The notes below the pieces were generated by a model, which was given only the letters and a program-made list of their open reading frames with translations, was not told the DNA's origin and made no database searches. This document shows, one piece after another, positions 7,887 to 25,295 of a stretch of 25,871 nt of DNA. Source of the stretch: a virus; IMG/VR virus record IMGVR_UViG_3300030060_005195, positions 1-25,871 of that record; one strand, written 5' to 3'. A program made the position numbers and the translations under genes. Numbering within the stretch: position 1 is the first letter of the stretch; each line of letters begins with the position of its first letter.

Positions 7887-8756
7887 ATGAATGAATTTAA
7901 CAATTTACATAGTTGCTTCCAATCAGAATTGCAAGCACTAACAGCTTTCGGTAAAGAAGTAAGTAGTAATGGTACTAATCAAACAGAATTATTATTTAGA
8001 TCTGTTTGTATAAATAATCCAACACACTTAGCAATTAAGCATCCTTCTAGAAAATTTAATCCAGCATACTCAGTACTAGAGTTTTTATGGTATCTATCAG
8101 GTCACAGAAAAACAAACAATATTGGTAAGTGTGCAAATATATGGTTAAAAATACAAGATGAACAGAATGAAGTAGAATCAAACTACGGTAGTTATATTCT
8201 TGGCCAACAATGGGATTGGATATTAAAAGAACTAGAAAATGATAAAGATTCTAGAAGATGTACAATAGTAATCCATCAACCACATCATAAAACTAAAAAT
8301 GAAAAAGATCTACCTTGTACACAGTATTTACAGTTTTTCATTAGAGAAAATAAATTACATTTAGGTGTAAACATGCGTTCTAATGATATTATTTTTGGCT
8401 TTTGTAATGATGTATTTAACTTTGCTCTATTTCAGCAACTAATGTTAAATGAGTTGAGATCTGTATATCCTGACTTAAAATTAGGTTCTTATTACCATCA
8501 TGCTGGTAGTTTACATTTATATGATATGCACTATGATATGAAAGATAATATTATGATGGATATTGCCAAGTTAAGTAAAGAAACTCTATGGACAGAAGAA
8601 AGATATGAACTACAGCCATGGATAACTAGAAAACATATTGCAGAAAATAATATGCAATTACCTATAGAAGATTTACCAAAATTAGAGCTAATGGCTTTTA
8701 CAAAGGCACAAATGCAAAAGTTATTTAGACCAAAATCAAGATTATATCATATATGA
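7887..8756 (+). CDS. 42: Deoxycytidylate 5-hydroxymethyltransferase (T4 gp42-like, thymidylate synthase fold)
   Basis: The 289-residue product has the thymidylate-synthase fold. The catalytic cysteine is Cys144 in LPCTQYLQF. The segment VNMRSNDIIFGFCNDVF matches what I recall of T4 dCMP hydroxymethylase (VNMRSNDVVFGFRNDY), and GSLHLYDMH replaces the thymidylate-synthase form GDAHIYxNH. Asp175 stands where thymidylate synthases have the Asn that selects dUMP; T4 gp42 has Asp there (Asp179), and the distance from the catalytic Cys (Cys148) is 31 residues in both. The expected reaction is dCMP plus methylenetetrahydrofolate to 5-hydroxymethyl-dCMP. A DNA beta-glucosyltransferase one gene downstream supports this, as the two genes are neighbours in T4. 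An automatic label of thymidylate synthase is the main alternative. No clear ribosome binding site; probably coupled to the upstream gene. Confidence 0.8.
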   Translation: MNEFNNLHSCFQSELQALTAFGKEVSSNGTNQTELLFRSVCINNPTHLAIKHPSRKFNPAYSVLEFLWYLSGHRKTNNIGKCANIWLKIQDEQNEVESNYGSYILGQQWDWILKELENDKDSRRCTIVIHQPHHKTKNEKDLPCTQYLQFFIRENKLHLGVNMRSNDIIFGFCNDVFNFALFQQLMLNELRSVYPDLKLGSYYHHAGSLHLYDMHYDMKDNIMMDIAKLSKETLWTEERYELQPWITRKHIAENNMQLPIEDLPKLELMAFTKAQMQKLFRPKSRLYHI

Positions 8757-9079
8757 AAGATAAGTTAAACAAAGAATATAAGTTACGTATGTCAAAGAAA
8801 AGTAAAAAAGAATCAATATTGAAAAGAGCTGATGATGTTGTAAACCATCGATCAGAAGAAAAAGAAAGAATGTATGGTCCTTTTAGTGAAGGTATGCAAA
8901 GAGCTGCAAAAATAGCTAGTGGTATGACTGGTAAAGATTTTGAAGCTGAAGATATGTATGCAGCACTAATTGCATTAAAGTTATCTCGTCATTCATACAA
9001 TTATAGAGAAGATAATTTGTTAGATTGTGTAGCTTATTTAGGTGCACTTGATAATTACATAAAGGAGAATAAACAATGA
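8753..9079 (+). CDS. Small all-helical phage protein (DUF6378-like), possible nucleotide-pool enzyme
   Basis: The product is 108 residues and overlaps both neighbours by ATGA, so it sits as a coupled gene between the hydroxymethylase and the glucosyltransferase. After a basic N-terminus it reads ILKRADDVVNHRSEEKERMYGPFSEGM, then EAEDMYAALIALKLSR and REDNLLDCVAYLGALD. This layout resembles short phage proteins I know as DUF6378; the assignment is from memory. The spaced acidic residues in helices (ED...K..R, then ED...D) recall all-alpha NTP pyrophosphatases of the MazG/dimeric-dUTPase type, to which T4 dCTPase gp56 is related, but a match is not shown. An alternative start is ATG at 8789. Confidence 0.7.
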   Translation: MKDKLNKEYKLRMSKKSKKESILKRADDVVNHRSEEKERMYGPFSEGMQRAAKIASGMTGKDFEAEDMYAALIALKLSRHSYNYREDNLLDCVAYLGALDNYIKENKQ

Positions 9080-10251
9080 AAATAAATGTTATGAAAATAG
9101 GTGCTACCATAAATGCCAACAATGGTAGTATTCTTACGGATGAAATAAATGTTGTAACAAAAATGTTGGCAGACCAAGGCCATGATGTTCACTATCATAC
9201 TACTAGAACTAGAAGCATGATACCTTTACCTCATGCAACTTTTCATGACCTAGCTGAAGTTACAGACCAATCATTTAGTGATTATGACGCTTTAATAGTA
9301 TTTAATGGCAATGCAAACTTTTATGGTGGACAAGAAGCAAGAGGTGATCTGATGGCATATAAGTTCATCAATAAGTCTACATGTCCTGTATTTTACTTTT
9401 TAACAGATTGGCTATTACCACTTCAACAACTTTGGCCAAATGTAGAAAAGAAACAAGTACAATACCATTGGGAAAGACAATATACTAGAGATGAAATAGA
9501 AGTTACTAGAGAAGATATTATTATGATATCTCAAATATATAATATGGAAACTCTACAAGCAAAGTATTTAGATAAAAGAGGAATAAATTACGCAGATATT
9601 GTTTACTTTCCGCTACAAGACTTTATTATTCATGAATATGAACCAATTGCAAAAGTAGAACAACAAGATAGATGGTTAGATTTAATTTATGGTGGTACAT
9701 TTAGAGGTGGCCACAGACAAGATAAGATGATAGAATATTATTTTGACTATCCACAAGATATAAACGTACAAATGTTTGGTAATATAAAACCAGATCATTT
9801 TAGTAAGAAGAAAACAGCAGATATGAGGTTTCCAGACTTTATCAGTAAAAAGGTAAAGCATAGAGAATTCTTTGATAGAATGCAAACTTCAAAAGCTACA
9901 GTTACAATTAGTGATAAACTGTATGAAGGATGTGCAATATCAAATAGAACAAATGAATCTATTATTGGAAACGTAGTATCTTTTATAGATAGAGGTTATG
10001 ACCCTGAAATGAGAATATTTAGTGATGATTTACTTCGTAAATTTAATTATGTAGATAAAAAGTCAGACGTTATAGCTAGATTAAAATATTTGAAAGATAA
10101 CCCTAGTGCATTTGATGAAATAATAAAAAGACAGTATGAAGATGCAACAGGAAAAATGTCAAAAGAACAATATTACAAGTCTTTTGTAAATATAGTAGAA
10201 TCTAAATTAGAAAATAAGCAAGTAGAGGAAATACAATGGTTTCAGAACTAA
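9076..10251 (+). CDS. bgt: DNA beta-glucosyltransferase (T4 BGT-like)
   Basis: The 391-residue product aligns along its length with T4 DNA beta-glucosyltransferase (351 residues), which moves glucose from UDP-glucose onto 5-hydroxymethylcytosine in duplex DNA. Matching blocks include SDYDALIVFNGNANFYGG, FLTDWLLPLQQLWPNV, LDLIYGGTFRGGHRQDKM and MFGN. Residues equivalent to T4 active-site residues are kept: Glu23 (T4 Glu22), Asp111 (catalytic base Asp100), Arg210 and Arg214 (Arg191, Arg195), Asp280 (Asp258), Arg291 and Glu294 (Arg269, Glu272). T4 Glu163 appears to align with Gln181. AAGGAG precedes the ATG, and the start overlaps the upstream stop. It overlaps the dUTPase gene by 16 bases. The extra 40 residues are mostly loop insertions, for example around residues 44-60. 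Confidence 0.9.
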   Translation: MKINVMKIGATINANNGSILTDEINVVTKMLADQGHDVHYHTTRTRSMIPLPHATFHDLAEVTDQSFSDYDALIVFNGNANFYGGQEARGDLMAYKFINKSTCPVFYFLTDWLLPLQQLWPNVEKKQVQYHWERQYTRDEIEVTREDIIMISQIYNMETLQAKYLDKRGINYADIVYFPLQDFIIHEYEPIAKVEQQDRWLDLIYGGTFRGGHRQDKMIEYYFDYPQDINVQMFGNIKPDHFSKKKTADMRFPDFISKKVKHREFFDRMQTSKATVTISDKLYEGCAISNRTNESIIGNVVSFIDRGYDPEMRIFSDDLLRKFNYVDKKSDVIARLKYLKDNPSAFDEIIKRQYEDATGKMSKEQYYKSFVNIVESKLENKQVEEIQWFQN

Positions 10252-10777: not shown

Positions 10778-13228
10778 ATGAAATTATCAAGGTTATCAAG
10801 CAAGTTCGACAAAGGTTTCTTCAATATGTATCAGTTTGGATATGATGGAGATAAATTAGGTGTAAAAGTAGATAGAATAAAAGACTATTTTTATTATTCA
10901 GCAGAACATATTCAAGATATATTAGATATTAGACAGTTTGACTGTAAACACACAGATCTATATACAACATTATATGGTGATAAAGTTTACAAGGTTTATT
11001 ATTCAGCAATAAAAGCTAAGAATGAACTAGTAAAGAAATATCCAGATAGAATATATCAAGCTGACGTAACACCTGAATTTAAGTATATGTTAGATCGAAA
11101 GTTAGAATGGTCTAGTAAACGTCATATTATGTATTTTGATATTGAGACTTGGTTTGACCCTGAACAGCCAAAAGCAAACATGCCTCATAAAGCAATGATG
11201 CCTGTTACTTCAGTAGTCTGTTATTCTAATTTTCACAAAAAGTATTGGGTAATATCTTGGCATCCAGAACATACTAAAGATTTTGATGAACCAAAAATAA
11301 CTGAAAAAGACAATGTTAATTATATGCTTTGTAAAGATGAAAAAACAGTTTTATTAAGTTTCATTGAATTGCTAGGCATAATGAAAACAGATGTTCTTAC
11401 AGGATGGTATTCTGCAGGTTATGACCTTCCATATATCATAAATAGATGTAAAAGACTTGGCCTACCTTATGAGAATCTTTCGCCATTAAAAGATGTTTAT
11501 ATTAAAAAGCGTGGTGAATATTGGAGAATAAACATAAAAGGTTTAGACCATGTTGATATGATGGAAGCAGTTCAAGATATGGGATATAATCTTCCTAATT
11601 GGAAACTAACAACTGCAGTAAAAGAAATTATTGGTGATGAAGATCTAGATAAACTTACTGAAGTTACATGGAGAGATTGGATAGATAACTATAAAGGATT
11701 TATTGAGTATGGTATTCGAGATGTAGAGATACTTGCAGAATTAGATAAGAAAATACAGATATTTGACTTATATACTACACTTCAGCAGATCGCACATACT
11801 GACACATTAGGTGGTACATTCCACAAATCAATGGTTGTTGATAACTATATATTAAAAGAAAACCATGGTAAGATTGTATTTCCAACTAGACACACAAGAG
11901 CAAAACAACAATATGCTGGTGCTATAGTTTTTAATCCTAGAGAACCTGGTCGTCATAAAGACGTAACAGTAATGGATTATACTTCACTATATCCAACTTC
12001 AATTATGGCATTCAATATTAGTCCTGAAACATTTATTGTATCAGAAAAATCTTGCAAAAAGATGGGTATTAAGATTGAAGATGTAATTGAAAAGCTAAAA
12101 GCAGATGGTATAGGTTATATAGACACTGGTTCACCTAAAACTAATGGTGTACCAGAACTATTTGGTGAAAGATATCTCTTTTACGACCATAAATATAAAC
12201 TAGGACTTCTACCACAAGTATTAAGAAAATTATTCTTACAGAGAGTTGAAGTAAATAGAGGATTAAAAGCTGGTGAATATAGTGGTGATGAAATTGTAGC
12301 AATGGATAAAAGACAACAAGCATATAAACTAGTTCTTAACTCAGCTTATGGTGCTATGGGCTTTAACTTTTTCAGATTATACAGACCAGAATGTGCAGAT
12401 GGTATTACATTTTTTGCTAGACAAGCTCTTAAATTTGCATCACTAAAGTTTCAACAACTAGACCATTATGTTTTATATGGTGATACTGATTCAATATTTG
12501 TTAAGTCAAATGGAAAGTCAGAAGAACAAATGAAAGAAACTCTAGTTGACTTTAATGATATGTTAAGAAAAGAGTTAGTTGAAAAATATAATCCTGGTGT
12601 AGATGATGATTATATGTTGATGGACTTAAAGTTTGAGTATGACTTAGAATACATATACTTTGGTGATTCTAAGAAAAGATATTATTCAATCATACGAGAT
12701 ACAGGTAAAAAGTATATTAGAGGTATGAATATTATTCGTAAAGATACACCAGAATTTATGAAAGGTGCTCTAAACAAAATAGCAGAATTGGCTGTTAGAG
12801 GTACTTTAACTATGGAACATTTACATGCATTGAGACAGAAGATTGAAACTGTAGACTATAAGCTTATAGGTATAAATAAAAAGTTTACAAAGTCTTTTGA
12901 CCAATACGTTAAGACAATGCCACAACATGTTAAAGCTTCGTTTTGGGCAAATGAAAAACTCAATACTACTATAACACATAGTGATACTCCACTTCTTTTT
13001 TATATAAATAGTAAGTGTGAAGATGACTTAAAAATAAAACAGAGACAGCAAGCTATTTGTCTTAATGAAGAAGATCTACATTTAGTAGATGAAAGAAAAG
13101 ATGTATTTGAAATAGACTATGATACATTTTTCAAAAAGCAAGTTCTAGACCAATTAGAAGAATTTGACAAGATTGACGAAGTTAAGGCTTTAGTAAAAAA
13201 TTATACAACAGCTGAGGTATTATCTTAA
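10778..13228 (+). CDS. 43: DNA polymerase, family B (T4 gp43-like)
   Basis: The 816-residue product (T4 gp43: 898) is the replicative polymerase with proofreading. Exonuclease motifs: MYFDIETW (Asp121, Glu123), GWYSAGYDLPYI (Asp216) and YGIRDVEIL (Tyr311, Asp315). Polymerase motifs: A, DYTSLYPTSIM (Asp400); B, KLVLNSAYG (Lys517 to Gly525); C, YGDTDS (Asp569, Asp571). All catalytic aspartates are present. In exonuclease motif II the Asn that I recall in T4 gp43 (GWNIEGFD) appears as Tyr211, an unusual change. The gene stands alone behind promoter copy B and is followed by a 60-base gap before groES. A phage with modified cytosine would need this enzyme to accept hydroxymethyl-dCTP, as T4 polymerase does. 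Confidence 0.95.
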   Translation: MKLSRLSSKFDKGFFNMYQFGYDGDKLGVKVDRIKDYFYYSAEHIQDILDIRQFDCKHTDLYTTLYGDKVYKVYYSAIKAKNELVKKYPDRIYQADVTPEFKYMLDRKLEWSSKRHIMYFDIETWFDPEQPKANMPHKAMMPVTSVVCYSNFHKKYWVISWHPEHTKDFDEPKITEKDNVNYMLCKDEKTVLLSFIELLGIMKTDVLTGWYSAGYDLPYIINRCKRLGLPYENLSPLKDVYIKKRGEYWRINIKGLDHVDMMEAVQDMGYNLPNWKLTTAVKEIIGDEDLDKLTEVTWRDWIDNYKGFIEYGIRDVEILAELDKKIQIFDLYTTLQQIAHTDTLGGTFHKSMVVDNYILKENHGKIVFPTRHTRAKQQYAGAIVFNPREPGRHKDVTVMDYTSLYPTSIMAFNISPETFIVSEKSCKKMGIKIEDVIEKLKADGIGYIDTGSPKTNGVPELFGERYLFYDHKYKLGLLPQVLRKLFLQRVEVNRGLKAGEYSGDEIVAMDKRQQAYKLVLNSAYGAMGFNFFRLYRPECADGITFFARQALKFASLKFQQLDHYVLYGDTDSIFVKSNGKSEEQMKETLVDFNDMLRKELVEKYNPGVDDDYMLMDLKFEYDLEYIYFGDSKKRYYSIIRDTGKKYIRGMNIIRKDTPEFMKGALNKIAELAVRGTLTMEHLHALRQKIETVDYKLIGINKKFTKSFDQYVKTMPQHVKASFWANEKLNTTITHSDTPLLFYINSKCEDDLKIKQRQQAICLNEEDLHLVDERKDVFEIDYDTFFKKQVLDQLEEFDKIDEVKALVKNYTTAEVLS

Positions 13229-13288
13229 GCTAATATGATATTTATATATTGAAAGGTTATTAAATAAAACAATAGGAGAATAAAGGTT
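13229..13288 (+). promoter_or_regulatory. Leader of the chaperonin operon
   Basis: The 60-base gap contains GATATTTATATATT at 13238-13251, a possible -10 region similar to sequences before the reductase and ribbon-helix-helix genes, and a double ribosome binding site (AGGAGAA and AAAGGTT) directly before the ATG at 13289. The AAAGGTT heptamer adjacent to ATG occurs before three other genes in the window. I see no terminator for the polymerase gene here. Confidence 0.4.
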
Positions 13289-15252
<1,964 letters not shown>

Positions 15253-16898: not shown

Positions 16899-17296
16899 AA
16901 GTAGGAATAGTTGGAAGCAGACAATATGAGAATAAAAGAAAGATTAAAGAGATGATTTTCAGGCTTAAACAAACTTTTGGAGATGATTTAACAATAATCG
17001 GCGGTGGATGTCTAGATGGAGCAGATAGATATGCTAAAAAGTATGCTCTAGAATTAGGATGTAATTATGTTGAAGTAAACCCTGCTCATACACCTAAAAA
17101 TTTATATTCGTATATGAGAGAAGAATGGTATAATAAGCCATTTTCGGTAAGAAATTTTCATATAAGAAATAAAATATTGGCAAGTATAGTTGATAGGCTA
17201 GTAGCCTTTATTCCTAGAGGCCATAGATCTGACAGCACAGATAGTACACTTAAATATGCTGAAAAATTTGATAAAAAATGTATCATAATAACGTAA
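16895..17296 (+). CDS. SLOG/DUF2493-like nucleotide-binding protein
   Basis: The 133-residue product starts MKVGIVGSRQYENK, continues with TIIGGGCLDGADRYAKKYA and ends with a RNKILASIVDRLVAF segment. This is the layout of the small Rossmann-like SLOG proteins (DUF2493, DprA/YspA relatives), which are thought to bind nucleotides or nucleotide-derived ligands. The biochemical role in phages is not established. It is coupled by ATGA to the nuclease gene, so the two may act together in DNA handling, which is inference. Confidence 0.75.
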   Translation: MKVGIVGSRQYENKRKIKEMIFRLKQTFGDDLTIIGGGCLDGADRYAKKYALELGCNYVEVNPAHTPKNLYSYMREEWYNKPFSVRNFHIRNKILASIVDRLVAFIPRGHRSDSTDSTLKYAEKFDKKCIIIT

Positions 17297-17349
17297 CTTT
17301 CTAAATATATCTATATATTTATATATGTATATACTTAGGAGAGAATGTT
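17297..17349 (+). promoter_or_regulatory. AT-rich leader of the ribbon-helix-helix gene
   Basis: The 53-base gap is nearly pure A+T, with TATATATTTATATATG at 17312-17327 and TATACT at 17330-17335, followed by AGGAGAG, a strong ribosome binding site for the ATG at 17350. A promoter is likely here, but the exact -10 box cannot be chosen: TATACT would leave no room for the ribosome binding site on the message, so the upstream box is preferred. Confidence 0.4.
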
Positions 17350-17538
17350 ATGAAACATAAAACAAAATTAACTTCGGTTAAAGTTGATATAGAAGCTCAA
17401 AATAAGTTTAAGTACATTTGTTTAGAAAATGGAATGAACTTCCAAAAGCTAGTAAATAGATGTCTTATCTTATATATTGAAGATGACAAGTTTAAGAAGA
17501 GAATCGACAAGTTTGAGTTATATATAACAACAAAATAA
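17350..17538 (+). CDS. Ribbon-helix-helix DNA-binding protein (62 aa)
   Basis: The 62-residue product fits the Arc/MetJ ribbon-helix-helix pattern: a short strand with alternating residues (KLTSVKVDIE), helix A (AQNKFKYICLENG), a turn containing Asn-Phe, and helix B (QKLVNRCLILYIED), then a charged tail. Such proteins bind DNA as dimers and usually repress transcription. It is the first gene behind its own AT-rich leader and stands just upstream of the glycan cluster, so it may regulate itself or that cluster. The assignment rests on pattern only. Confidence 0.65.
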   Translation: MKHKTKLTSVKVDIEAQNKFKYICLENGMNFQKLVNRCLILYIEDDKFKKRIDKFELYITTK

Positions 17539-17553
17539 TTTAGAGGAAAGGTT

Positions 17554-19041
17554 ATGAATGGTATCGAGCTGCCAAAGCTTAAAAAACTGAGCCCTAACGG
17601 GGTAAAAAAGAAAAAGATTTTATTATTATCAGATGATATGAGACTTCATTCTGGTGTAGGAACTATGTCAAAAGAAATTGCTGTAGGTTCTGCTCATTTA
17701 TTTGATTGGGTACAAATAGGTGGAGCTATCAATCATCCTGATGCAGGAAAAGTTTTTGATGTTTCTGATGATATAAATAAAGAGTTAGGAATAGACCATG
17801 CAAGTGTTAAGATTTATCCAGTCAATGATTATGGAAATGCTGAAATATTAAGACAAGTAATGAGTATAGAAAAACCAGATGCTATTATGCACTTTACAGA
17901 TCCAAGATTTTGGGGTTGGTTATATCAAATGGAACATGAACTAAGACAACATATTCCATTAACATACTTGAATATATGGGATGATTTACCTTATCCTCAT
18001 TGGAATGAAAATTTCTATGAATCTTGTGACCTCTTGATGGCAATTTCAAAACAAACATATAATATAAATAACCAAGTTTGTAGAAGAAAGCCTAGAAGAG
18101 AAGGTATAGATTTAACTTACGTTCAACATGGTATAAGTAAACATAAGCACTATCCAATTGATGAAGATTCAGCTGACTTTAGTGAATATTTTGATTTTAT
18201 ATCAAAGAGAGGATATGATAAGTTTGATACTATATTCTTCTTTAATAGTAGAAACATTAGAAGAAAGTCTACAAGTGATTTAGTTTTAGCATATAGACTT
18301 ATGTGCGATACTCTACCTAAAAAAGAAGCTGACAAATGTTTACTATTATTACATACAGATCCAGTAGACCAAAATGGTACTGATTTACCAGCAGTGATAC
18401 GTGCTCTATGTCCTAATTACAATGTAGCATTTTCAAACGGAAAAGTTCAATCTAAAGAATTAAATTATCTATATAACGTGGCTTCAGCAACTTGTCAACC
18501 TTCATCTGCAGAAGGATTTGGTTTAAGTGTTATGGAATCAATAATGTCAGGAACTCCTATATTAGGAACAGTTATTGGAGGTATACAAGACCAAATGGGA
18601 TTCAAAAAAGATGATGGTACTCCAGTTGAATTATCAGATTTTTCAGCTGAATGGCCTAGTAATAGTGATAAAAAATATACAAAGCATGGTGAATGGGCAT
18701 TTCCATGTTGGCCACAAATAAATTTACAAGGTTCACCAATGACACCATATATTTATGATAGTAGACCTTCAGTAAAAGATATGGCAAAACAACTTAAAAA
18801 TATTCAAAAATTAGGTAGAAAAGAACTAAAAAGACGAGGAAAGATTGGTAGAAAATGGGCAATTGAAAATGGTTTCGATGCAAAAGGCATGTGTGAAGCT
18901 TTTATTAAGTCTATGAATGCATGTTTTGATAATTTTGAACCTAGAAAGAGATTCACATTATTGAGTGCAGATAGTAAAGCACCTAATTATGATGATGGAG
19001 TTATTTTCGATAGTAAACAAATATTTGGGGAGAGTATATAA
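17554..19041 (+). CDS. Glycosyltransferase, GT-B fold (GT4-like)
   Basis: The 495-residue product has the two-domain GT-B layout. The N-terminal domain starts near residue 21 (KILLLSDDMRLHSGVGTMS), where the Gly-rich loop normally contacts the acceptor or donor. The C-terminal domain includes FFFNSRNIRRKS, LLLLHTD and the GT4 signature SSAEGFGLSVMESIMSGTPIL with the EX7E pair Glu320 and Glu328. It transfers a sugar from a nucleotide donor with retention of configuration; donor and acceptor cannot be told. The start has GAGGAAAGGTT directly before ATG. Its stop shares a base with the next start (TAATG). No membrane segment is apparent, so it should be cytoplasmic. Confidence 0.88.
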   Translation: MNGIELPKLKKLSPNGVKKKKILLLSDDMRLHSGVGTMSKEIAVGSAHLFDWVQIGGAINHPDAGKVFDVSDDINKELGIDHASVKIYPVNDYGNAEILRQVMSIEKPDAIMHFTDPRFWGWLYQMEHELRQHIPLTYLNIWDDLPYPHWNENFYESCDLLMAISKQTYNINNQVCRRKPRREGIDLTYVQHGISKHKHYPIDEDSADFSEYFDFISKRGYDKFDTIFFFNSRNIRRKSTSDLVLAYRLMCDTLPKKEADKCLLLLHTDPVDQNGTDLPAVIRALCPNYNVAFSNGKVQSKELNYLYNVASATCQPSSAEGFGLSVMESIMSGTPILGTVIGGIQDQMGFKKDDGTPVELSDFSAEWPSNSDKKYTKHGEWAFPCWPQINLQGSPMTPYIYDSRPSVKDMAKQLKNIQKLGRKELKRRGKIGRKWAIENGFDAKGMCEAFIKSMNACFDNFEPRKRFTLLSADSKAPNYDDGVIFDSKQIFGESI

Positions 19042-20303
19042 TGAAAGAATTATTAGTTTTTCAAGGACCTTGTAGCTCTAGATCAGGTTATGGAGACCAT
19101 GCTAGAGACTTAGTTAGAGCTTTAATTTCAATGGATAGATTTGAAATTCAAATTATAGATTTAAGATGGGGTGATTGTCCTAGAAATGCACTAACAACAA
19201 AGGACAATGATATAACAAGTAGAATTGCTGTAGGAAATATCAATAGACAGCCTGATGTTTTTGTTCAATTGAGTGTACCTAATGAATTTACTCCACATGG
19301 AAAATTCAACATTGGAATAACTGCTGGAATAGAAACAACTCTATGTGCAGCACCATGGATAGAAGGTCTAAATAGAATGGACTTAAATATTGTACCTAGT
19401 GAGCATTCAAAAAATGTTTTCTTAAATACAAGCTATGATAGGATGGATAATAGAACTCAACAAAAGGTCGGAGTATTAAAATGTGAAAAACCAATTGAAG
19501 TTTTATTTGAAGGAGCAGATTTGAATATATGGAAAAAGACAGATGAAATAGCAAAAACAGTTCATGAAGATTTATCAACTATTCCTGAAAGCTTTTGCTT
19601 CTTACATGTAGGCCATTGGCTTCAAGGAGTAGAAGGAGAAAGTAGAAAAGATACAGGAGGAATGATAAGAACTTTTTGTAATACATTTAAGTCAGGAACA
19701 AAAAAACCTGCTCTTATATTAAAAACCAGTAGTGCAACATTTAGTGTAATAGATAGAGAACAAACTCTAGCAAAAATTCAGTCAATAAGAAATCAAATAC
19801 CTAATGCTCCAAATGTTTATTTATTACATGGAGATATGACACCTACAGAACTTAATTCGTTATATAACCATCCAAAGGTAAAGGCACATTTGAGTTTTAC
19901 TAAAGGTGAAGGTTTTGGTAGACCACTATTAGAGGCCAGTCTAAGTGGTAAACCAGTTATAGCGTCCAATTGGTCAGGACAGGTTGACTTTTTGAAACAT
20001 TCAGTTATGTTACCAGGCGAAGTTAAACAGGTACACCCTTCAGTTCATTGGAAGGACGTAATTTTACCTGAATCTGGATGGTTCTCTGTGAACTATAACT
20101 ACGCATCTAAAGTTCTTAAAGATGTATTTAAGAAATATAAAGACTATATTCCAAATGCAAGAAAGCAGAGAAGATATAGTATAGATAACTTTAGTCTAGA
20201 AAAAATGAATAGTGATTTTAAGACGATGGTTGATACTCACGTAAAAAGAACAGAACAGGTACAAATAAAATTACCTACATTACCACAATTAAAAGAGGTT
20301 TAA
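19041..20303 (+). CDS. Glycosyltransferase, GT-B fold (GT4-like), second copy
   Basis: The 420-residue product begins MKELLVFQGPCSSRSGYGDHARDL, an N-terminal Gly loop like that of the upstream enzyme, and carries the GT4 signature TKGEGFGRPLLEASLSGKPVIAS with Glu290 and Glu298. NIGITAGIETT and LNIVPSEHSKN are typical of the same family. The two adjacent GT4 genes differ in length and in most of their sequence, so they are not a recent duplication and probably add different sugars. Donor and acceptor are unknown. Translation is probably coupled to the upstream gene. Confidence 0.87.
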   Translation: MKELLVFQGPCSSRSGYGDHARDLVRALISMDRFEIQIIDLRWGDCPRNALTTKDNDITSRIAVGNINRQPDVFVQLSVPNEFTPHGKFNIGITAGIETTLCAAPWIEGLNRMDLNIVPSEHSKNVFLNTSYDRMDNRTQQKVGVLKCEKPIEVLFEGADLNIWKKTDEIAKTVHEDLSTIPESFCFLHVGHWLQGVEGESRKDTGGMIRTFCNTFKSGTKKPALILKTSSATFSVIDREQTLAKIQSIRNQIPNAPNVYLLHGDMTPTELNSLYNHPKVKAHLSFTKGEGFGRPLLEASLSGKPVIASNWSGQVDFLKHSVMLPGEVKQVHPSVHWKDVILPESGWFSVNYNYASKVLKDVFKKYKDYIPNARKQRRYSIDNFSLEKMNSDFKTMVDTHVKRTEQVQIKLPTLPQLKEV

Positions 20304-21379: not shown

Positions 21380-22009
21380 ATGAGAATTAGTTATGCAATT
21401 ACAGTGTGTAATGAGCACAAAGAATTAAGAACTTTATTAGACTTTTTATTCAAGCATAAGAGAAAGAAAGATGAAGTTGTAGTTCAAAAAGATAATGGAA
21501 ATGCTACTGACGAAGTATGGGATGTTTGTGAAAGGTTTGAATCTAAACAAGCTGTAGAATATAAGCACATATCTCACGCTCTAAACAAGAACTTTGCTCA
21601 GTATAAAAACAATTTGAATAAAGCTTGTAGTGGAGATTGGATATTTCAAATAGATGCAGATGAAATACCTAATGAATATCTTATCCAAGCTCTACCTTAT
21701 ATTTTAGAAGCTAATGATGGAGTTGAAGCGTACTGGGTACCAAGAGTAAATACTGTAGCAGGAATTACTGATGAACATATTGCAAAATGGGGTTGGAGAT
21801 TAAATGAACAAGGTTGGGTAAACTTTCCAGACTGGCAAATGAGATTATATAAGAATGACGAAAATATTTATTGGATGAAGCCTGTACATGAACAGTTAAA
21901 GGGTTATACCAAATTTGCAAACTTACCACCAGAAGAAAAATTTGCATTATACCATCCAAAAGATATTGGAAGACAAGAGAAACAAAACGCATTTTACGAA
22001 ACTATTTAA
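21380..22009 (+). CDS. Glycosyltransferase family 2-like (GT-A)
   Basis: The 209-residue product is a short GT-A enzyme. MRISYAITVCNEHKELRTLLDFL is the usual GT2 opening, DEVVVQKDNGNATDEVWDV follows, and CSGDWIFQIDADEIPNEYL holds the metal- and nucleotide-binding DAD motif at residues 92-94. Near the end, RLYKNDENIYWMKPVHEQL resembles the acceptor-side segment of the lipopolysaccharide core glucosyltransferase-like GT2 group. Length is at the low end for a complete GT2. The start has GGAGAAAAGGTT directly before ATG. Confidence 0.85.
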   Translation: MRISYAITVCNEHKELRTLLDFLFKHKRKKDEVVVQKDNGNATDEVWDVCERFESKQAVEYKHISHALNKNFAQYKNNLNKACSGDWIFQIDADEIPNEYLIQALPYILEANDGVEAYWVPRVNTVAGITDEHIAKWGWRLNEQGWVNFPDWQMRLYKNDENIYWMKPVHEQLKGYTKFANLPPEEKFALYHPKDIGRQEKQNAFYETI

Positions 22010-22024
22010 TTATTAGGAAAGGTT

Positions 22025-22879
22025 ATGAACAAGAAAGTATTGGTTACGGGCGGTGCCGGCTTTATAGGCAGTAATTTAATTAAAACACTCATAAGTAAAG
22101 GATATAATGTATCTTCAATAGACAATTACGATAGTGGAACTGAAGATAATCATGTAGATGGATGTGTATACTATAAAGGAGATGTGATTGATTGGTTAAC
22201 AAGTAGTAATAGAAGTTTTGATATTTGTTTCCACCTAGCAGGACTTAGTCGTATTCAACCTTCTTTTTCAAACCCTGATGAAACACTAAGGGTAAATACC
22301 ATAGGTACTCAAAAAGTACTAGAATTTGCTAGAAAAACTGGTGCAAAGATGGTATATGCAGGTTCATCTTCTAGATGGCACGACCCATATCAATCACCTT
22401 ATGCAACATCAAAATATTTAGGTGAAGAACTATGTAAAATGTACAGAAAAACATATAATTTACATATAGAAATCGCAAGATTCTATAACGTATATGGACC
22501 TGGTGAAATAATAGATGGTGATTGGGCTGCAGTAACTGGTATTTGGAGAAGACAAGTTAGAGATGGTAATAAAATTACAATAGTTGGAGATGGTAATCAA
22601 AGAAGAGATTTTACCTATGTTGGTGATATTGTTGATGGACTAATTAAAATTGTAGAATCAGGTGAAAAACATGAAGATGCATGGGAGTTTGGAACAGGTA
22701 TGAATTATTCCATAAATGAAGTATATGAAATGTTTAGAAGCAGATTTGGTGTAGAAAAAATACATTTACCAGACCAAGCAGGAAATTATAGAGAAACATT
22801 AAGAGAAAATAATGACTCTTTAGAAAGATTAGGATGGACGCCTACAGATAGACTTAATAAATATATTAGTGAGTTGTAA
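22025..22879 (+). CDS. NAD-dependent sugar epimerase/dehydratase (extended SDR)
   Basis: The 284-residue product has the extended short-chain dehydrogenase fold: TGGAGFIGSN at residues 8-17 binds NAD, HLAGLSRIQPSF is the usual third strand segment, Ser114-116 with Tyr126 and Lys130 (YATSK) form the catalytic set, and RFYNVYGPGE and GDGNQRRDFTYVGDIV are typical of UDP-glucose 4-epimerase and related nucleotide-sugar enzymes. It should interconvert a nucleotide sugar for the neighbouring glycosyltransferases. The exact substrate cannot be read off; the family also includes dehydratases and decarboxylases. Ribosome binding site AGGAAAGGTT touches the ATG. Confidence 0.88.
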   Translation: MNKKVLVTGGAGFIGSNLIKTLISKGYNVSSIDNYDSGTEDNHVDGCVYYKGDVIDWLTSSNRSFDICFHLAGLSRIQPSFSNPDETLRVNTIGTQKVLEFARKTGAKMVYAGSSSRWHDPYQSPYATSKYLGEELCKMYRKTYNLHIEIARFYNVYGPGEIIDGDWAAVTGIWRRQVRDGNKITIVGDGNQRRDFTYVGDIVDGLIKIVESGEKHEDAWEFGTGMNYSINEVYEMFRSRFGVEKIHLPDQAGNYRETLRENNDSLERLGWTPTDRLNKYISEL

Positions 22880-22880
22880 T

Positions 22881-25295
22881 ATGAGTAAACAAAATAAATT
22901 TAAGATAGTAATACCTTCATATAATAATGAAAAGTGGGTAGAATATAATACTGCAAGTATAATTAGTCAAACATATAAAAATTATGACGTATTATATATC
23001 AACGACAAATCAACTGATAATACACCTGAACTAATAAAAAACATTAAGGAAAAATACAATCTAGAAAATTGGACAATATTAAATAATCCTGAAAACATGC
23101 AGAGAGGATATAATGTTAATCCTAACGCTCCACATATTATTGATTTTATGGATAGTGAAGATGATATTTTGATGTTTGTAGATGGAGATGATTGGTTAAT
23201 AAATGATAAGGTGTTAGAAAACTTAAATAATTACTACAATCAAAACGATCCATGGATGACGTATGGTGGAATGTATTGTTGGCCAAGTAATCAAAAGGCT
23301 CATCCACAAAATACAGAATATAGTGACCATGTTCATAACAATAAATTGTACAGGCAAGATATTTGGAGAGCAAGTCATTTAAGAAGTTTTAAGTGGTTCT
23401 TATATAAGCAGATAAAAAAAGAAGACCTTATTTGGAGTAAAACAGGAGAATATTACTATAATGCAGAGGACTTGGCAGTTTCTTATTTTTGCCTAGAGAT
23501 GTGTCCTAAACATAAAATTGGAGTAGTTGACTTTCCAACTTATGCCTACAATGAAGATCCAGAAATTGTAGCAAGAGGATTAGCTAGACAAGACAAGGAT
23601 ATTCAAAATCCTGAAGGACAAGAGGCAGAGATTAGAGCTAAAACTCCATACGAAACCTTACCATTTGAAGATGAAGAATACTTTTTAGTACCTCAACTTG
23701 CTGGTGGATTAGGTAATATGATGTTTCAAATAGCGTCAGCTAAAGGTATATCTGCAAATAATAGCCATACTGTCGCAACAGATTTTACGCATTTAGGAAC
23801 AATACATAGACTTCCAACTGAATATAAAGGTAATATATTTAGAAATGTAAAACAATTATCTGAACATCTAAAAGGAGAAAGAATAGACGTAGCAAAATTT
23901 GAATATTCTGATGTTAAACTAAATAGAGTTCACACACAACTAACAGGTTACTATCAATCTCCTAAATACTTTGACCACATAAGAGATGAAATAATAAACT
24001 TTTTCTCTCCAACTGAAGAAATAAATTCATACATTGAAGATAAGTATGGTAAAATTGATGACTTTGTTTCAATACATATTAGAAGAGGAGACTACACAAA
24101 ATTATCACAGTATCACCATAATTTAGATATATCTTATTATGAAAATGCAATAGATTATTTTTCAGGTCATAATTTTATGGTGTTTAGTGATGATATAGAA
24201 TGGTGTAAAGAAAATTTTGATTTTTCACCTGATTCTAAATTTATTGAAGGAGAAGAAGATTATATAGATTTATATATGATGTCAAAATGCCAGCACAATA
24301 TAATAGCAAACTCAACTTTTAGTTGGTGGGCAGCATACTTAAATACAAATTCTAATAAAAGTGTAGTTTATCCTGATAAATGGTTTGGACCTGCAAATGC
24401 AGATAAATTTTCAACTCAAGATTTATTTCCAAATGATTGGGTATGTTTAAGTGAAAATTTACCAGTAAAGTGTATGAATATGTTTGATGATGCATGTGCA
24501 CACTTAGCTAAAGAAAATGGAAGATATTCTTCAGTACATGGTAAAATATCAAAGCATGTTAAATTTACAAGGGGAAACACTGATACACAATGGCCATCTA
24601 TATTTACTGACGAGCATCTATATAGTAATGTAAAAGTCGGAGGTAAAAGGATAGGATGGTTGATGGAAACTAGAGAAGTTTATCCACAACGATATGTAGA
24701 CTTTGAAAAATATAAAGATAATTTTGAATTTGTAATGACTCATGACCAAGAGTTATTAGACAAATATCCAAATAATACAAAGTTCGTTCCCTTTGGAGGT
24801 TGTTGGATAAAGGATAATAATTTTAGAGTTTCTGAAAAAAGTAAGGATATATCGATGATTTATTCCAATAAGACTTTTTTAGAAGGACACAAACTTAGAC
24901 ACGAAGTAGCAAATAAAATATCAGGAATAGATTTATTTGGTAGAGGTACAAGTAATCCTGTTGAAATAAAAGAAGATGCAACTATAGATTATAGATTCTC
25001 TATTGTAATAGAAAACTCTAAATGTAAAAATTACTTTACGGAAAAATTAGTAGACTGTTTAGCAGTCGGTACAGTACCAATATATTGGGGTTGTCCTAAT
25101 ATAGGTGATTTTTTCAATAAGGAAGGAATACTTTCGTTTAATTCATTTGATGAGTTAAAAGGCATAATTGATATGGGTAATTTTGAGACAAAATATAATA
25201 GTATGATGAATGCAATTTTAGAAAACGTAGAATTAGCAAAAAAGTATAATGTCACAGAAGATTGGATGTATGAAAATATTAGTGAATTGTTTTAG
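22881..25295 (+). CDS. Three-domain glycosyltransferase fusion: GT2, GT11-type and GT10-type fucosyltransferase
   Basis: The 804-residue product joins three enzyme domains. Residues about 7-226: GT2, with KIVIPSYNNEKWVEYNT and FVDGDDW. Residues about 267-525: GT11 alpha-1,2-fucosyltransferase-like, with LAGGLGNMMFQ, SIHIRRGDYT and IIANSTFSWWAAYLN. Residues about 590-760: GT10 alpha-1,3/4-fucosyltransferase-like, with SIVIENSKCKNYFTEKLVDC and GTVPIYWGCPNIGDFF. All three hallmark motif sets are present, so the domains may all be active; the likely activity is successive addition of a sugar and of two fucoses to a cytoplasmic or membrane-linked acceptor. No membrane segment is apparent. GTG at 22869 would add four residues, but ATG at 22881 directly after the epimerase stop is preferred. 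I see no internal stop or frameshift. Confidence 0.88.
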   Translation: MSKQNKFKIVIPSYNNEKWVEYNTASIISQTYKNYDVLYINDKSTDNTPELIKNIKEKYNLENWTILNNPENMQRGYNVNPNAPHIIDFMDSEDDILMFVDGDDWLINDKVLENLNNYYNQNDPWMTYGGMYCWPSNQKAHPQNTEYSDHVHNNKLYRQDIWRASHLRSFKWFLYKQIKKEDLIWSKTGEYYYNAEDLAVSYFCLEMCPKHKIGVVDFPTYAYNEDPEIVARGLARQDKDIQNPEGQEAEIRAKTPYETLPFEDEEYFLVPQLAGGLGNMMFQIASAKGISANNSHTVATDFTHLGTIHRLPTEYKGNIFRNVKQLSEHLKGERIDVAKFEYSDVKLNRVHTQLTGYYQSPKYFDHIRDEIINFFSPTEEINSYIEDKYGKIDDFVSIHIRRGDYTKLSQYHHNLDISYYENAIDYFSGHNFMVFSDDIEWCKENFDFSPDSKFIEGEEDYIDLYMMSKCQHNIIANSTFSWWAAYLNTNSNKSVVYPDKWFGPANADKFSTQDLFPNDWVCLSENLPVKCMNMFDDACAHLAKENGRYSSVHGKISKHVKFTRGNTDTQWPSIFTDEHLYSNVKVGGKRIGWLMETREVYPQRYVDFEKYKDNFEFVMTHDQELLDKYPNNTKFVPFGGCWIKDNNFRVSEKSKDISMIYSNKTFLEGHKLRHEVANKISGIDLFGRGTSNPVEIKEDATIDYRFSIVIENSKCKNYFTEKLVDCLAVGTVPIYWGCPNIGDFFNKEGILSFNSFDELKGIIDMGNFETKYNSMMNAILENVELAKKYNVTEDWMYENISELF

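Follow-up and report, generated by a model that had tools for sequence, protein, structure and literature searches.

Three glycosyltransferases in one viral reading frame

A contig of 25,871 nucleotides from IMG/VR (record IMGVR_UViG_3300030060_005195, analysed over its whole length and called the window below) carries a viral gene that appears to encode three glycosyltransferases in a single polypeptide, which raises the questions of whether such a protein is real, what it would make and on which acceptor it would act. Translation of positions 22881-25295 on the plus strand gives a stop-free product of 804 residues and about 94 kDa, and all the motifs on which the original prediction was based are present in it, namely DGDDW of GT2 (residues 101-105), GGLGNMMFQ (275-283), HIRRGDY (399-405) and STFSWWAAYLN (478-488) of GT11, and ENSKCKNYFTEK (711-722) and VPIYWGCPNIGDFF (732-745) of GT10. 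A Pfam search of the whole protein likewise agrees with the predicted order of families, since it places GT2 (PF00535; 7.1e-17, 62.3 bits against a gathering cut-off of 23.3) at residues 9-166, GT11 (PF01531; 3.3e-32, 112.4 bits against 23.9) at 354-522 and GT10 (PF00852; 1.8e-11, 44.5 bits against 23.9) at 651-762, all above the curated cut-offs. PHROG 2644 matches residues 275-522 at 4e-56 and is thereby longer than the Pfam GT11 match. The ATG at 22881 is preferred as start codon because just one base separates it from the stop of the upstream epimerase gene (22877-22879) and because it aligns with the starts of relatives, an alternative GTG at 22869 adding four residues. The modules and the surrounding genes are collected in Table 1.

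Table 1. Modules of the fusion gene and neighbouring genes in the window
Feature	Position	Strand	Evidence
GT4-type glycosyltransferase, cassette core	17554..19041	+	Pfam Glycos_transf_1; 17/19 loci; two adjacent Mel-JY01 ORFs
GT4-type glycosyltransferase, cassette core	19041..20303	+	Pfam Glycos_transf_1; 17/19 loci; 47% to Mel-JY01
Small GT2-like glycosyltransferase, cassette core	21380..22009	+	Pfam; 17/19 loci; 40% to Mel-JY01
NAD-dependent sugar epimerase/dehydratase	22025..22879	+	Pfam Epimerase 4e-45
GT2-GT11-GT10 fusion gene	22881..25295	+	Open frame, Pfam, same architecture in 17 other contigs, hydropathy
GT2 module, residues 1-262, exchangeable head	22881..23666	+	Pfam PF00535, fold match, GT2 tree
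Linker, about residues 245-265, site of GT2 head exchange	23613..23675	+	Jump in windowed identity, pairs L057/L067 and L059/L050
GT11 module, residues 263-530	23667..24470	+	Pfam PF01531, PHROG 2644, fold match to NodZ/FUT8/POFUT1
GT10 module, residues 531-804	24471..25292	+	Pfam PF00852, alignment to 2nzw, FUT9 fold match, invariant columns
NodU-like carbamoyltransferase start, cut by contig end	25325..25870	+	PHROG 1601; Carbam_trans_N below Pfam cut-off

Predicted folds and active sites

The AlphaFold model of the fusion, computed from a 48-row alignment, has three confident folds (mean pLDDT 92.2, pTM 0.72). Structure comparison relates residues 1-261 to the GT2 enzymes K4CP (Z 21), TarS (Z 20) and WrtF, and residues 529-804 to human FUT9 (Z 16.2, rmsd 4.0 over 245 residues). 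No solved structure was found to match the GT11 module by sequence; modelled alone (pLDDT 90.7), its GT-B fold matches NodZ, FUT8 and POFUT1, which are GDP-fucose enzymes. The idea of an assembly line, as first proposed for this gene, is thus upheld as far as three transferase modules are concerned, two of them from unrelated fucosyltransferase families, but the supposed initiating role of the GT2 module is not supported, since the module is a soluble GT-A domain like those of the elongating or decorating enzymes K4CP, TarS and WrtF, no membrane segment is predicted by hydropathy anywhere in the fusion protein and no polyprenyl-phosphate initiating enzyme was seen.

D101, D103, D104 and W105 of the DXD-type motif in GT2 are invariant across nine aligned fusions, and the HxRRxD-type motif of GT11 is present in the window fusion, with RRGN replacing RRGD in some others (L008, L053). 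In the GT10 signature EN...Y.TEK, residues N712, Y718, E721 and K722 align with N240, Y246, E249 and K250 of the Helicobacter pylori FucT 2nzw, which we take to be donor-site residues, and Glu596, upstream of ENSKCKNYFTEK, is invariant as well. Furthermore, Nei-Gojobori dN/dS is well below 1 for each module in most pairs (0.05 for GT2, 0.18 for GT11 and 0.15 for GT10 in L049/L050), which argues against any of the modules being a dead passenger; the GT2 value is inflated in the pair L057/L059, where the heads are non-orthologous.

Occurrence of the fusion and its partial relatives

A further 17 IMG/VR contigs, drawn from 16 metagenomes, carry the same single-frame GT2-GT11-GT10 architecture, their best segments being 45-72% identical to the window protein, and together with the window they hold 14 distinct sequences; a third IMG/VR scan seeded on the GT11-GT10 part gave no additional triples. 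That assembly or sequencing joined three genes by mistake, a possibility raised along with the original prediction, deserves practically no credence and was rejected, since nothing but the rarity of the architecture speaks for it, whereas independent contigs carry the same fusion and each module has a low dN/dS. Chance is ruled out by the E-values of the domains and by the low dN/dS of the modules taken separately. We can conclude that the architecture is rare but real. It also appears to be as new to phages as had been suggested, since none of 50,697 phage records covers 80% of the fusion protein, and the same is true of 72,556 plasmid records. In cells, short peptide seeds, patterns that could miss a diverged cellular triple, were run against 84,980 species genomes and gave 28 loci with the families only as separate genes. 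Searches of an open-access literature library likewise gave no phage GT2-GT11-GT10 protein.

The relatives form a graded series of separate genes, pairs, triples and a four-part protein. In L045, GT2, GT11 and GT10 are separate, overlapping adjacent genes in the order of the fusion; a GT2-GT11 fusion is accompanied by a separate GT10 gene in seven contigs (L013, L014, L065, L068, L069, L071 and L075); L063 and, from a different lineage, L168-L170 and L177 combine a GT11-GT10 fusion with an unfused GT2. Further modules are added at either end, such as an FkbM methyltransferase before GT2 (L065, L068) or after GT10 (L075, L103) and a 235-residue N-terminal extension in L010/L061 that gave no Pfam match. 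In L053 (region 12401-14334), L054 and L058 the triple continues into a tail resembling GT29 sialyltransferases, with a Pfam score of 24.2 bits that is barely above the cut-off of 23, giving a four-transferase phage protein of 1078 residues. The gene directly 3' of this tail is of the CMP-sugar synthetase type and matches the pseudaminic acid cytidylyltransferase PseF (7e-24), an adjacency which suggests that donor synthesis and the GT29-like transferase belong together in these contigs.

Exchange of the GT2 head

Identity between fusions differs strongly from module to module, the window protein being 94, 69 and 54% identical to that of L001 in GT2, GT11 and GT10, respectively, and 33, 52 and 62% identical to that of L007. 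In the pair L057/L067 identity is about 30% up to the domain border at residues 245-265 and about 70% beyond it, and the windowed identity of L059/L050 also jumps at about these residues, while dN between L057 and L059 is 0.40 in GT2 against 0.04 in GT11. The GT2 tree rejects a single clade for the heads of the 13 triple fusions (p-AU 8e-90) and places those of L007, L008 and L010 among the free-standing GT2 genes L112, L114 and L117. These alignments and trees show that GT2 heads have been exchanged at the domain border.

A single origin of the triple was considered and rejected. The first GT11 and GT10 trees placed the triples on one side of a single branch with modest SH-aLRT values of 78 and 82, but in the enlarged trees the unfused L171-L173 fall inside the triples, at positions that differ between the two trees, so that fission or reassortment must be allowed; in addition, the GT2 heads are not one clade.

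The cassette and the donor sugar

The core upstream of the fusion, consisting of the two GT4 genes and the GT2-like gene, is found in 17 of the 19 loci compared. Downstream genes in relatives include GDP-fucose-synthase-like genes, GMD, dehydratases, aminotransferases, transketolase-like halves and a NodU-like carbamoyltransferase, which lies directly 3' of the fusion in several relatives and is full-length in L050. Directly before the fusion many relatives, among them L116 (9025-10008), have a conserved protein of 325-330 residues with no Pfam match; it is absent from the window and is possibly an unrecognised transferase. In L048 a sugar cassette contains an RfbH-type 3-dehydratase (17017-18429) that is above the NCBIfam cut-off and has the PAHH motif, implying 3,6-dideoxyhexose synthesis by that phage.

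We infer, with a probability of roughly 60%, that the fusion is a soluble three-module glycosyltransferase which adds a sugar by its GT2 module and two fucose-type caps by the others, using GDP-L-fucose made by the phage and a virion protein as acceptor. The cassette core enzymes would build an acceptor glycan, onto which the GT2 head would put one sugar, and GT11 and then GT10 would each add a fucose-type sugar as a cap at the growing end, the order of modules being that of the reactions. By being joined, the modules would hold the intermediate on one protein and fix the order. A fucose-capped branch is a reasonable expectation in view of the GMD and GDP-fucose-synthase-like genes near the fusion in relatives, a difucosylated branch is a plausible product, and the products may resemble Lewis b/Y.

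The donor is probably GDP-fucose, and most likely GDP-L-fucose supplied by phage enzymes. The evidence on its synthesis comes from relatives only, as the window stops 576 bases past the fusion, and consists of GMD genes that reach E-values of 1e-122 and about 371-403 bits, just under the curated cut-off of 415, and of GDP-fucose-synthase-like genes with 161-239 bits, far under their cut-off of 500. The latter scores may be taken to suggest that the donor for GT11, GT10 or both is instead a relative of GDP-fucose, for example GDP-colitose or the nucleotide of a different 6-deoxyhexose, a notion in keeping with the RfbH-type 3-dehydratases with PAHH motif in four relatives and with the existence of colitosyltransferases resembling alpha1,2-fucosyltransferases. 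We nonetheless regard this as fairly improbable, since both modules retain the GDP-fucose motifs of their families, GMD is strong in relatives and the PAHH motif, searched for with a narrow pattern, was not found in most of the contigs examined.

The acceptor and the phage

The cultured Microcystis phage Mel-JY01 has kept the core glycosyltransferases and the preceding PD-(D/E)XK nuclease in the same order as in the window, although its DNA polymerase is only 25% identical to that of the window phage, and GT11 and GT10 are absent from the corresponding region of its cassette. Since the core is thus kept in a diverged phage that lacks the two capping families there, we take this to mean that the core of the glycan is conserved while its outer sugars are changeable and may be varied through module swaps. 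The window GT4 gene at 17554-19041 corresponds in Mel-JY01 (L237, PP395634.1) to two adjacent ORFs at 31442-32933, either a split gene or a frameshift.

A virion glycan is our best guess for the acceptor, most likely one carried by a phage virion protein and made in the cytoplasm, and it is preferred since the cassette looks soluble and since the core is common to diverged phages. Host surface polysaccharide or a lipid-linked precursor of it, altered by the infecting phage so as to keep out others, as has been proposed for cyanophage LPS genes, is a less likely acceptor, though one to be taken seriously, since cyanophage sets of single GDP-fucose and fucosyltransferase genes, of which S-SRM01 carries one, have been read as serving cell-surface modification (PMC9602691). 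Such a role is in poor agreement with the genes of the window, among which neither a flippase, an initiating transferase nor a membrane protein was found, hydropathy giving no membrane segment in any gene product of at least 80 residues, and with the conservation of the core between phages whose DNA polymerases have diverged so far.

The window also has a T4 beta-glucosyltransferase-like gene (9076-10251; PF09198, 1.9e-20) and, near it, a gene of the thymidylate synthase family (7887-8756), possibly coding for a dCMP hydroxymethylase, which together suggest glucosylated hydroxymethylcytosine in the DNA of this phage. The glycan might accordingly be built on modified DNA, with the glucose extended by further sugars, but we find this very improbable, as among 18 contigs that carry the fusion in whole or in part, several of at least 60 kb and all possibly fragments, either gene was seen only in the nearest relative and not in the 17 others.

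As to the phage itself, a search of the triple-fusion contigs, possibly incomplete ones, gave no T4-type Gp23 capsid. The clues to the host differ: the window encodes GroES-like and GroEL proteins (13289-15252), and its GroEL is nearest to that of Bacteroidota among the phyla and genomes tried (56-57% in the best two genomes), whereas its RecA and RNR are nearest to those of Mel-JY01.

Comparison with known systems

Two chlorovirus proteins are among the closest parallels. A111/114R of PBCV-1 has 860 residues in the order GalT-XylT-FucT (PMC7826918); like the fusion it is virus-coded and has three transferase domains, each about 260-300 residues long, and it has been proposed to build part of a capsid glycan. 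Its C-terminal domain, for which the GT10 enzyme 2NZW served as modelling template, is the only module of the same type as in the fusion, whose order is instead GT2, GT11, GT10; it belongs to a virus of eukaryotic algae, begins with an LgtC-like GalT and a XylT and has a single fucosyltransferase. In A064R of PBCV-1, two rhamnosyltransferases and a methyltransferase make three successive transfers onto one glycan end in vitro (PMC9614988), so here too a single viral protein carries three such activities for the end of a capsid glycan, but the families are others and the third domain is a methyltransferase, comparable to the FkbM-fused proteins of L065, L068, L075 and L103.

PgtA of Dictyostelium and Toxoplasma joins a GT2 beta1,3-GalT to a GT74 alpha1,2-FucT, its fucose transfer needing UDP-Gal and its domain order varying between species (PMC6939170). 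It shares with the fusion the combination of GT2 and an alpha1,2-FucT-type module in one cytosolic protein, but it has two modules, acts on eukaryotic Skp1 and uses GT74, while the second module of the fusion matches GT11 at 112 bits. Together, PgtA and A064R show that the modules of a fused transferase can act one after the other. K4CP and heparosan synthase likewise have tandem modules with a GT2-type fold in one protein, but they are polymerases with two glycosyltransferase domains and no fucosyltransferase module. Finally, in the unfused cassettes of the cyanophages S-SRM01 and S-SCSM1 (for the latter, PMC9602691), genes for GDP-fucose synthesis lie next to GT2, GT10-like, GT11 and FkbM genes, which differs from the fusion in that there is one gene per function.

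Implications

Proteins with several transferases are thus already known from chloroviruses, and in cyanophages each of the three functions is known as a gene of its own (PMC9602691), whereas the libraries and papers searched contained neither the GT2-GT11-GT10 order in one phage protein nor its partial-fusion relatives, its exchangeable head or the form with four modules. A wider reading, which we put forward only tentatively, is that phage glycans may come from modular assembly lines on one polypeptide, made up of a sugar-adding head, two fucosyl caps and GT29-like or methyltransferase tails, whose parts would be swapped at domain borders along with donor-sugar genes, giving fast variation of the outer sugars around a conserved core. 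The gradation from unfused genes through proteins of two and three modules to one of four shows which steps of phage glycan synthesis belong together and in what order, and the fusion would make the target of a phage fucosylation machinery directly testable. Soluble fused enzymes of this kind could moreover be one-pot tools for fucosylated glycans.
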